A stretch of 44,137 nucleotides of DNA from assembly GCA_027459845.1 (NCBI GenBank), contig DAIDGS010000020.1, positions 1 to 44,137 on the forward strand, given 5' to 3'. Origin of the DNA: Vulcanimicrobiota bacterium. Its GTDB lineage: Bacteria > Vulcanimicrobiota > Vulcanimicrobiia > Vulcanimicrobiales > Vulcanimicrobiaceae. Position 1 is the stretch's first letter; each line of letters starts with the position of its first letter. Both the position numbers and the translations under genes were made by a program. Of the stretch, positions 39,595-43,789 are shown in pieces. Below the pieces are notes generated by a model that worked only from the letters and a program-made list of their open reading frames with translations, had not been told where the DNA came from and searched no databases.

Positions 39595-40257
39595 CTAGAG
39601 CTCGGTACGCAAGTTGCGCGTTCCGTGCAGGTGTGCGACGTCGTTGAGGGCGAGGGCGAGCGCATTGCCATCGCGGTAGCGCACGACGCTGATCGAGGTG
39701 GCTTCGGCCGGGAAGAAAAAGTCGGATTCCAGGCCGATCACGTCGGCGATGTAGGCGTTGATCGTGCCGGCATGGCTGACGATTGCGATCCGCTGACCGG
39801 GATGCTCGACCGCGATCGCATCGATGGCTTCACGCATGCGTGCGCGAATCGACGCCGAGGATTCGGAGCCGGGAATCTGCGACCAGCCGCCGTGCTGCAC
39901 GGCAAGCGCGGCGATGCGGTCGAGGTGCGCCCCGAAGGACGCCGGATGCATCGGCCGATCGAGGCCGCCGATCTCGACTTCGCGCAGGCGGTCGTCGTAG
40001 GCGATGGCACGGTCGGTCGCGTTGGCGATGGCGGCGGCGGTCTCGGCCGCTCGGCGCAAGGGGCTAGCGTAGACGGTCGCGATGGTCGAGCGTGCCAGGC
40101 GCGCCGCCAGGGCGCGCGCTTGCTTGCGACCGCGCGCGCTGAGCGGCAGATCGCGATAGCTGGCCTCCACCGGCGCCGCGTCAGGATCGGGCACGGCTTC
40201 GGCGTGGCGGATCAGCAGCAGTTCGGTGGCGCCGTCGGCTAGAGAAAACGCTCGCAT
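39595..40257 (-). CDS. Histidine phosphatase (phosphoglycerate-mutase-like)
   Basis: A 220-residue enzyme of the histidine phosphatase superfamily. LLLIRHAEAV places the phospho-accepting histidine at H18; LPLSARGRKQARALA, VYASPLRRAAETA and IAIVSHAGTINAYIADVIG supply the rest of the pocket. RHG is here RHA, as in many broad-specificity members. The ATG at 40257 gives the natural start; a GTG at 40314 adds nothing family-like. Substrate unknown. Confidence 0.9.
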   Translation of the reverse strand: MRAFSLADGATELLLIRHAEAVPDPDAAPVEASYRDLPLSARGRKQARALAARLARSTIATVYASPLRRAAETAAAIANATDRAIAYDDRLREVEIGGLDRPMHPASFGAHLDRIAALAVQHGGWSQIPGSESSASIRARMREAIDAIAVEHPGQRIAIVSHAGTINAYIADVIGLESDFFFPAEATSISVVRYRDGNALALALNDVAHLHGTRNLRTEL

Positions 40258-40355
40258 TGAAAGCCGGGTTTCGGCACCCTGCGCGCGAGTCTTGTCCCAG
40301 AGGGAGCGCGCCACGCTGCGGGAATCATCCAGGCGTCTTCTTGCAGGAGGGTACT

Positions 40356-41282
40356 ATGCGGTCGCTTCGTCTCATGGCCGTACTCACGTTGATGTTGGGC
40401 GCAGCTGCGTGCTCGGCGAGCTCGGGGAGTGGTGCGTTTCGCGCGGCGCCGATGCTGCCGTCGGCGCTGGCAAAGCTGCAGCACGCGTACACGATCTCGC
40501 ACCTGCGGGTGCATCTGATGCCGCTGCGCGGTAAGCGCATCCGGCTTGCCGCCACGCCGGTCGTCTACCCGGCCGATCTGGCGCGCGGCACCGGCAAAGT
40601 CGTCACCGCTGCGGCCTCGTACGATATCTACGTCAACTGCTCGAATCCGAGTGCGTGCTGGGGACAGGTTCAGGGCTTTCTGACCAACCTGAGCGGCTCG
40701 TCGTTCGCCGGGTTGCTCAAGCAGTACACCGGGGCCAATCCTTCGGCGTACACGTTCGGTGGATCGAGCAACGTGCAGTGGCCCAACTACAGCGAGATCG
40801 GCGAAAACGATCTCCTGGCGATCGTTCACCAGGTTGCCGCGGCGACGCAGCAGACCGGATACGGCACCATTTACCACGTGTTCTTGCCCAAGGGCGTCGA
40901 CACGTGCTTCGACTATTCGGCGTCGTGCTACTCGCCCGACTATCGACCGACCTTCGCGTTCTGCGCCTATCACTCCAGCGTCACGTTTAGCGACATCGGC
41001 CACGTCCTCTACTCGGTCGAGCCCTATCAAAACGTCAACGGCTGCTCCACGTCGGCATCCAAGGGCGCCTCCAAGCTCACCAACTCTACCGCCTCGACCT
41101 TGGGCCACGAACTCTTCGAGTCGATTACCGATCCCGATCCCAACTCCGGCTGGTTCAACAACACCTTTGGCGACGAGATCGCCGACCTCTGCGAGACCTA
41201 TCTCGCTTCGGTGACGCTGGGCGGGACGCAATACCTCCTCCAGCCGATGTATTCGAACAAAGTTCACGGATGCACGGTCTGA
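40356..41282 (+). CDS. Secreted lipoprotein-like protein with HELxE motif (EXO/Phi-1-like)
   Basis: A 308-residue protein with a lipoprotein-type signal (MRSLRLMAVLTLMLGAAAC). The mature part contains several cysteines and the segment STLGHELFESITDPDPNSGW with H251, then FGDEIADLCE. This HEL...TDP...E/D-x-x-D-x-C arrangement resembles the plant EXORDIUM/phosphate-induced protein 1 family and suggests a metal site, though a peptidase activity is not shown. AGGAGG lies 6 bp before the ATG at 40356, deciding the start. TGATG junction with the next gene. Confidence 0.8.
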   Translation: MRSLRLMAVLTLMLGAAACSASSGSGAFRAAPMLPSALAKLQHAYTISHLRVHLMPLRGKRIRLAATPVVYPADLARGTGKVVTAAASYDIYVNCSNPSACWGQVQGFLTNLSGSSFAGLLKQYTGANPSAYTFGGSSNVQWPNYSEIGENDLLAIVHQVAAATQQTGYGTIYHVFLPKGVDTCFDYSASCYSPDYRPTFAFCAYHSSVTFSDIGHVLYSVEPYQNVNGCSTSASKGASKLTNSTASTLGHELFESITDPDPNSGWFNNTFGDEIADLCETYLASVTLGGTQYLLQPMYSNKVHGCTV

Positions 41283-42643
41283 TGCGCGCGCGTACGCTGA
41301 TCGTCGCGCTGCTCGGCGCCGTTATCGTCGCGGCGTCGCCGCCGCGTCATGCCGTGGCTGCGCCGGCGGCCCAGCCCGAGACCTACGCGCAGTTTGCCGC
41401 CGGCGCGACGGTGCAGCACGGGATCTTCACGATTCTGCGTAAGGACGGCGAGGTGTACGTCGACCTCTCGCCGCAACAACTCAATACCGATTACCTTGAA
41501 ACGATCGTTCCCGGCAACGGCATGGGCGCCGACTTCATCGTTTGGGGGAATACCGATCACCTTCCGGCCATGCTGATGCGCTTCGAGCGTGCCGGCGACG
41601 GGATCGCAATCGTCTGGCCGAACACCTCGTTCGTCGCGCCGCACGATCCGCCCGAGACCATCGGCATTCGGCGCAACTTTCCACAGTCGGTGGTCGGGAT
41701 CGGCAAAATTGTTGCCGAGGATGCCAACCATATCGTGTTCGACGCGTCGCCGCTGTTTCGCGACTCGCTCGACATGGCGCACATCATCAACGGATCGCTG
41801 GGGACGACCCCGAAATCCGCCTATCACCTCGACCTAAGCCGCACCTACTTCGGAGCGACGAAGGCGTTTCCCGAAAACGTCGTCATCGACGTCAACCAGT
41901 TGTGGGCGACCGATGCGCCACACGTGGCACCGGACACCGCCCCCGACGCGCGCAGCATCCAAATGCGTATCGTCTATAACTTCGCGCAGCTTCCGCACGA
42001 CCACTATCGGCCGCGTTACGCCGACGACCGGGTCGGGATCTACGACGATATCTACATGGATTTTGCGCCGTCGCGCGATCAAGCCCCGAGTCGGTATCTG
42101 CGTTACCTGGTGCGTTGGAACTTTGCACCGGCCGACCCGAACAAACCGTCGCGCGCAACGCATCCGATGGTGTTCTATCTCAGCAACACGATTCCGGTAG
42201 CCTACCGGCCGGCGATCACCGCGGCAGTACTGCGCTGGAATCGGGCCTTCGAGAAGATCGGAATTCTCGATGCCATTCAGGTGAAACCGCAACCCAACGA
42301 CCCGAACTGGGACCCCGACGACATCCGCTATAACGTGTTGCGCTGGGTCACCGAAGAGCAGCCTAGCTTTGGTGCCGACTCGCAGACGCTTTTCGACCCT
42401 CGCACCGGCGAGGAGTTTCGCACCGGAATCCTGATCTCCGCCGACAGCGCGCGCTTTGCGGCGCAGGCGTGGCGCGATTACGTCGATCCGGTCCGCTATG
42501 GCCGCGATACCGATCCCGTCCCCGCGTGGTTCATCTACGATTCGTTTCAGGCCGAGATCATGCACGAGACGGGTCATAACCTCGGCATGCAGCACAATTT
42601 CATCGGTTCGATGGCCTATACCGCTAAGGAACTGCAGAGCTAG
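41282..42643 (+). CDS. Zinc metalloprotease (DUF5117/DUF4953 type), 5' part, ends at in-frame TAG
   Basis: The first 453 residues of an exported protease. A signal peptide (RTLIVALLGAVIVAAS) is followed by the beta-rich N-terminal domain and the catalytic start, with the extended metzincin motif HETGHNLGMQH from H428. The reading frame ends in TAG at 42641-42643 and then continues without any shift. Related proteins read straight through this point (motif, short helix, FTxKxG, VMxY), so this is one gene split by a single codon. The ATG at 41282 shares a base with the upstream stop; an in-frame ATG at 41270 is an alternative. Confidence 0.88.
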   Translation: MRARTLIVALLGAVIVAASPPRHAVAAPAAQPETYAQFAAGATVQHGIFTILRKDGEVYVDLSPQQLNTDYLETIVPGNGMGADFIVWGNTDHLPAMLMRFERAGDGIAIVWPNTSFVAPHDPPETIGIRRNFPQSVVGIGKIVAEDANHIVFDASPLFRDSLDMAHIINGSLGTTPKSAYHLDLSRTYFGATKAFPENVVIDVNQLWATDAPHVAPDTAPDARSIQMRIVYNFAQLPHDHYRPRYADDRVGIYDDIYMDFAPSRDQAPSRYLRYLVRWNFAPADPNKPSRATHPMVFYLSNTIPVAYRPAITAAVLRWNRAFEKIGILDAIQVKPQPNDPNWDPDDIRYNVLRWVTEEQPSFGADSQTLFDPRTGEEFRTGILISADSARFAAQAWRDYVDPVRYGRDTDPVPAWFIYDSFQAEIMHETGHNLGMQHNFIGSMAYTAKELQS

Positions 42644-42679
42644 GCGTTTACCGCGAAGTACGGGATTGCCTCGACCGTC

Positions 42680-43789
42680 ATGGAGTACGCGCCGCTGAAT
42701 CTCTGGCCGCGGCCGTACCATCAGGGCAGCTACTATCAGACGGTACTCGGTCCGTACGACTACTATGCGATGCGCTATGCGTACGCCAACATTCCGGGCG
42801 CGACGACACCCGCGGCGGAGTTGCCGACCCTGCGTCGCTGGGCGTCGCACTGGTCCGATCCTCGCTATCGCTACGCCTCCGATGAAGACGTCTCGTGGCG
42901 CAACGGTCACGCCGCGGATCCGCGCAGCGAACAAGGCGACCTCACCAGCACACCGCTGGCGTGGTCGATGGTGCAGATGAAGATGCTGCGCTGGTTGATG
43001 ATCGACGACACGCGGCGGCTGCCGCACGTAGGCGGCGCCTACCAGCGCGCCACACAGGCCTTTGCCGGGGCGCTAGCGCGATACTTGAACGACGCACTGA
43101 TCGCCACGCACTACGTCGGCGGTCAGTACATCTCGCGCGCGCATCGCGGCGATCCGGGTGCCGCACCACCGATCGTACCGGTGCCGCTCGCGCGACAAGC
43201 GCGCGCGCTGGGAATCGTAACGCGCTACCTGTTTTCGGATCGCGACCTCACTTTTGCGCCGCAGGTGCTGGACAAGCTCGGTTACTCCGAGTGGGCCGGC
43301 TATGGCTACGTCGGTTGGGAGGGCTACGGCAATTTGCCGATTTGGGCCTACAACCCGCCTCAGCGTCACGACTACCCGGTGGTCGAGGTGATCGCGCACG
43401 CCCAGCGCGCCGCCATCGACCAGCTCTTCGAACCCACGGTGTTGGAGCGCATCGACGAGAACCATCTGCTCGCTACCTCTCCGACGCTGACGATGCCGAC
43501 GTTCTACAACATGCTGCAACGCGCCATCTTCCGCGAGGTTACCGCGCGCTCGCATCATATTGCGCTGCTGCGGCGCAATCTCCAGATCGCCTACACACGC
43601 ACGCTCATCCGCATTGCCGCAACCAACGACGTTGCCGTGCCGGCCGACGCGCGTGCGCTGGCCGGCTTGGCCCTCATGCGGCTGCACCACGCGCTCGCCT
43701 TGGCGTTGCGCGCCGGTGGCAGCGACGACGCGACCCTCGCGCACTACGAACTGCTGAACCGCATGGTGGCGACGGCGCTGAAGGTTTAG
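42680..43789 (+). CDS. Zinc metalloprotease, 3' part of the interrupted gene
   Basis: This is 369 residues from the first ATG after the TAG; the frame is open from 42644. It carries the Met-turn (VMEYAPLN, beginning at that ATG) and the C-terminal DUF4953-like region (YDYYAMRYA, the LGYSEWAGYGYVGWEGYG stretch and a helical tail). It has no ribosome site and no signal peptide, so it is not an independent gene. Codon use stays normal to the end, which suggests a recent mutation, a sequencing error or readthrough rather than long decay. Confidence 0.8.
   Translation: MEYAPLNLWPRPYHQGSYYQTVLGPYDYYAMRYAYANIPGATTPAAELPTLRRWASHWSDPRYRYASDEDVSWRNGHAADPRSEQGDLTSTPLAWSMVQMKMLRWLMIDDTRRLPHVGGAYQRATQAFAGALARYLNDALIATHYVGGQYISRAHRGDPGAAPPIVPVPLARQARALGIVTRYLFSDRDLTFAPQVLDKLGYSEWAGYGYVGWEGYGNLPIWAYNPPQRHDYPVVEVIAHAQRAAIDQLFEPTVLERIDENHLLATSPTLTMPTFYNMLQRAIFREVTARSHHIALLRRNLQIAYTRTLIRIAATNDVAVPADARALAGLALMRLHHALALALRAGGSDDATLAHYELLNRMVATALKV

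Follow-up and report, generated by a model that had tools for sequence, protein, structure and literature searches.

An otherwise open frame of 840 codons (41270-43789, + strand) that reads as a zinc protease is interrupted by a single in-frame TAG at 42641-42643, at residue 458, and the question raised by this locus is whether the stop marks a gene that has recently been broken, a base that was called wrongly, or a codon that is read through. The frame lies in the window, by which we mean the whole 44,137-nucleotide stretch of DNA that was analysed and which is contig C20 of the draft genome of a soil-type Vulcanimicrobiota bacterium.

Layout of the interrupted protease gene

The features of the locus, with the method that defines each, are as follows.

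40257..41282, + strand: open frame upstream of the protease, whose product begins like a lipoprotein and contains the motif GHELFESITDP (frame list)
41270..42640, + strand: first part of the protease, in which a probable signal peptide (counted from the ATG at 41282) precedes DUF5117 and the beginning of DUF4953, including HETGHNLGMQH (translation, Pfam)
42563..42595, + strand: codons of the zinc-binding motif HETGHNLGMQH, with His432, Glu433, His436 and His442 (translation, homologue alignment)
42641..42643, + strand: in-frame TAG, residue 458, private to the source genome among the homologues compared (translation, homologue comparison)
42644..43789, + strand: second part of the protease, with the Met-turn region (Met471) and the mostly helical C-terminal part of DUF4953, ending in a terminal TAG at 43787-43789 (translation, Pfam, AlphaFold2)

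When translated, 41270-43789 yields 839 residues and a single internal stop, which is preceded by HETGHNLGMQHNFIGSMAYTAKELQS and followed by AFTAKYGIASTVMEY. Pfam places a DUF5117 match (E 8.4e-20) upstream of DUF4953, and the two halves of the frame abut within the DUF4953 profile, with positions 5-44 matched before the stop and positions 46-314 after it (E 3.2e-50 for the post-TAG half), so that profile position 45 alone is replaced by the stop and there is no insertion, deletion or shift. In a search of the whole genome the protease frame was likewise returned as one match carrying a single TAG. The initial annotation had described exactly this arrangement, one in-frame TAG between the zinc motif and the Met-turn without a shift, and translation together with the Pfam coordinates bears it out, including the positions it assigned to the HETGHNLGMQH motif and the Met-turn.

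With DUF5117 and DUF4953 matches above their curated cut-offs, the zinc ligands and a Met-turn, the protein has the characters of the DUF4953 Met-zincins, and residues H432, E433, G435, H436 and H442 are invariant across 30 homologues. Judged by these sequence characters, the product encoded by the gene is a secreted metzincin-type zinc protease of the DUF5117-DUF4953 type, which is the identity adopted in the explanation that we favour below. It shares with the DUF5117-DUF4953 Met-zincins (PF17148, PF16313) the domain order, the HExGHNxGxQH motif, the Met-turn and the C-terminal helical part, and its orthologues reach about 70% identity along the full length, but it stands alone among these relatives in having an in-frame TAG at residue 458. 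A literature search on DUF5117 or DUF4953 found no mention of either domain, a PDB sequence search with the protease gave no match, and Foldseek returned only weak metzincin matches (archaemetzincin, MMP-16) with E above 0.05.

The likely start of the protease is the ATG at 41282, which is overlapped by the TGA of the upstream gene (41280-41282) as TGATG, and this overlap suggests that translation of the two genes may be coupled. The upstream frame has no Pfam or NCBIfam match, and in the flanking sequences fetched from relatives no counterpart of it lies next to the protease.

In an AlphaFold2 model of the protease (mean pLDDT 78.7), the zinc helix (419-437) is followed by the third histidine (442), then by a short helix of which residue 458 is the first residue, and then by Met471 of the Met-turn. 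Truncation at 458 thus removes the Met-turn and the entire C-terminal helical part, amounting to 381 residues or 45% of the protein.

The stop column in relatives and constraint on the downstream region

A search of 60 related genomes gave more than 150 matches to the protease family, and among the matches listed two contain an internal stop: the window with its TAG, and L008 (genome G031), a homologue from a different genus, with a TAA near residue 65. At the alignment column of the TAG, a sense codon is present in each of the 20 nearest orthologues, full or partial (51-72% identical), as the initial annotation had expected; these include the nearest orthologues, which are 67-70% identical over their full length and come from genomes G083, G087, G032, G011 and G036. 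When the region surrounding the stop was used to search 117 genomes of the class, no stop was found in the other copies among the matches listed. By these comparisons the TAG is private to the source genome among the homologues listed, in a comparison drawn entirely from other genera.

Relatives differ in the residue at this column: the closest orthologues mostly have Pro and many others Lys, with Arg, Ser, Met, Thr, Gln and Glu also found. The proposal that the stop arose from AAG or CAG remains a possible route, though it is not the one indicated by the nearest relatives, which mostly have Pro; since Pro codons are two substitutions from TAG, an intermediate sense codon has to be assumed.

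In L008 (G031:C150) the in-frame TAA lies at about position 757, corresponding to query residue 65, in a frame that is otherwise open and in a genome that is only 63% complete. Apart from this one independent TAA the relatives are intact, which speaks against the suggestion of a plain pseudogene with decayed copies elsewhere. A separate observation concerns the homologues of family f3 (G045:C1, G048:C88, G050:C5), which give matches in two pieces that divide near query residue 415 and belong to a single open frame, suggesting that a poorly conserved or inserted segment lies just before the zinc motif in these proteins.

The protease frame was scanned for other disabling changes, and no further stop and no frameshift were found in it. 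Downstream of the TAG, the divergence of the C-terminal part at the three codon positions is 0.31/0.25/0.48 between the window and the intact orthologue L002, against 0.30/0.22/0.49 for the intact pair L002 and L003, and it is about 0.29/0.25/0.52 between the window and L125-L127, similar to intact orthologue pairs. At otherwise-invariant residues of the C-terminal part the window has changed 2 of 86, compared with 0-5 in intact orthologues. The normalised ratio of C-terminal to N-terminal rate on the window branch is 1.86 (bootstrap 1.25-3.17) and is among the highest, although the intact orthologue L013 exceeds it at 2.21; with L013 higher and with no extra stop or frameshift, faster evolution of the C-terminal part was rejected as a sign of decay. 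In a simulation of neutral drift, the probability that no further stop would appear in the C-terminal part after 80 substitutions (0.07 per site) was about 0.06. Because the C-terminal part evolves like that of intact orthologues and has gained no further stop despite what drift would produce, the stop would appear to be young relative to the divergence from the closest relatives sequenced, or else not real; its age is bounded only by orthologues that are roughly 70% identical, the genomes searched including none of the same genus.

Use of TAG in the source genome

The source genome encodes release factor 1, with a match above the curated cut-off, and TAG is the terminal stop in 33 of 82 sampled genes. 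None of its 47 tRNA genes, to all of which an anticodon could be assigned, has the anticodon CUA (in a genome about 94% complete), and the model for pyrrolysyl-tRNA synthetase (PylS) gave only matches below the cut-off, as it did in most control genomes. The rate of interruption was estimated by comparing 362 kb of the source genome with 1.23 Mb from relatives, and in 85 well-matched stretches, comprising 27,930 aligned residues, the TAG in the protease is the one internal stop. The presence of release factor 1, the lack of a CUA tRNA or PylS, the frequent terminal use of TAG and the solitary internal stop together argue that TAG is a terminator of translation in this organism. The search for a suppressor tRNA or for pyrrolysine genes that had been proposed at the outset thus yielded neither: a suppressor was rejected on the tRNA set, pyrrolysine decoding on the tRNA set together with the sub-threshold PylS matches, and global recoding of UAG on the release factor, the common use of TAG as terminator and the lone internal stop. 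The locus resembles pyrrolysine recoding in having a UAG inside an open frame, but it differs in that the genome has neither PylS above cut-off nor a CUA tRNA, and in that the UAG is not conserved.

Two apparent frameshifts were flagged in the source genome, and the one that was checked corresponds to neighbouring genes for DAHP synthase and chorismate mutase. These two genes share one frame in the relative G032, and at L109 15125-17463 (G000:C4) one open frame resembles by eye a prephenate dehydratase-DAHP synthase fusion and is followed by a separate chorismate mutase.

Origin of the stop and its consequences

The best and simplest explanation, to which we assign a probability of about 0.74, is a recent nonsense mutation that is fixed or segregating, and this possibility, already raised in the initial annotation, fits best with a private stop, a TAG that works as a terminator and a downstream frame that is still constrained. 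The base at the stop would then be real, and a single nonsense mutation would have been acquired recently in the sequenced lineage, where it may be fixed or polymorphic. Ribosomes would stop at the TAG at 42641 through release factor 1 and release a product of 457 residues (453 from the ATG at 41282), which would keep the three zinc-ligand histidines. With the Met-turn and the last 381 residues missing, the truncated protease is most likely inactive. An intact paralogue, 44% identical, is present on contig C193 of the same genome, and the cell may be able to tolerate the loss on that account. A published survey (Belinky et al. 2021, PMC7918605) reports that lone in-frame stops are common across bacterial genes, that as a rule they last only on the time scale of polymorphism, and that they are found in genes whose dN/dS is below 1. 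The window stop resembles the cases in that study in being a lone in-frame stop in a gene still under constraint, but those cases are common to two or more species, whereas the window stop is found in a single genome.

The main rival, clearly less probable though still to be taken seriously, is that the stop is an error of assembly or consensus calling in this draft metagenome-assembled genome, the codon at 42641 in the organism itself being a sense codon. In favour of such an error, the genome is a draft whose 205 contigs total 2.72 Mb (completeness 94.4%, contamination 0.07%), the protease gene ends 348 bp from the end of its contig, the remainder of the frame looks fully functional and no listed homologue shares the stop. 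However, the occurrence of no other in-frame stop in the aligned residues indicates that the assembly is not generally error-ridden, and a second copy of the locus with a different base at the stop was not found in the assembly.

Programmed or tolerated readthrough of the TAG, which would limit the amount of full-length protease and which had been proposed as a check on a dangerous enzyme, appears improbable. It would account for a downstream part that is as constrained as in intact orthologues, and the lone stop sits at a variable position, at the predicted start of a short helix between active-site elements, where many residues may be tolerated; a young mutation, however, is just as good an explanation of that constraint. 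None of the relatives compared shares the stop, neither suppressor nor pyrrolysine machinery accompanies it, and release factor 1 is present in a genome where TAG is a common terminator. A stimulating RNA structure was also considered and rejected, as the predicted fold of 42600-42760 is no stronger than that of shuffled sequences (z = -0.74) and Rfam gave no match in the window. A more specific form, in which the TAG is a lineage-specific leaky stop and near-cognate readthrough at this residue-tolerant position keeps the secreted protease low and regulated, seems slightly more improbable still. Readthrough, if true, would be an unusual control on the amount of a secreted protease, but no observation here suggests it.

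Gene fission, in which the 457-residue product or two separate fragments would be functional, is similarly improbable: translation might in principle resume at the ATG at 42680, about 37 bases past the stop, but this codon is the Met of the Met-turn and has no clear ribosome-binding site before it, the zinc ligands and the Met-turn would lie on opposite sides of the break, no homologue among the matches listed from the 117 class genomes is split there by a stop, and the two-piece f3 matches sit in one open frame.

For a recent nonsense mutation, the preferred reading, the importance beyond annotation is small, and automatic gene callers will break the protease into two fragments. Taken with the TAG of the window, the independent TAA in another genus hints that members of the family may at times do without this secreted protease, perhaps thanks to paralogues.
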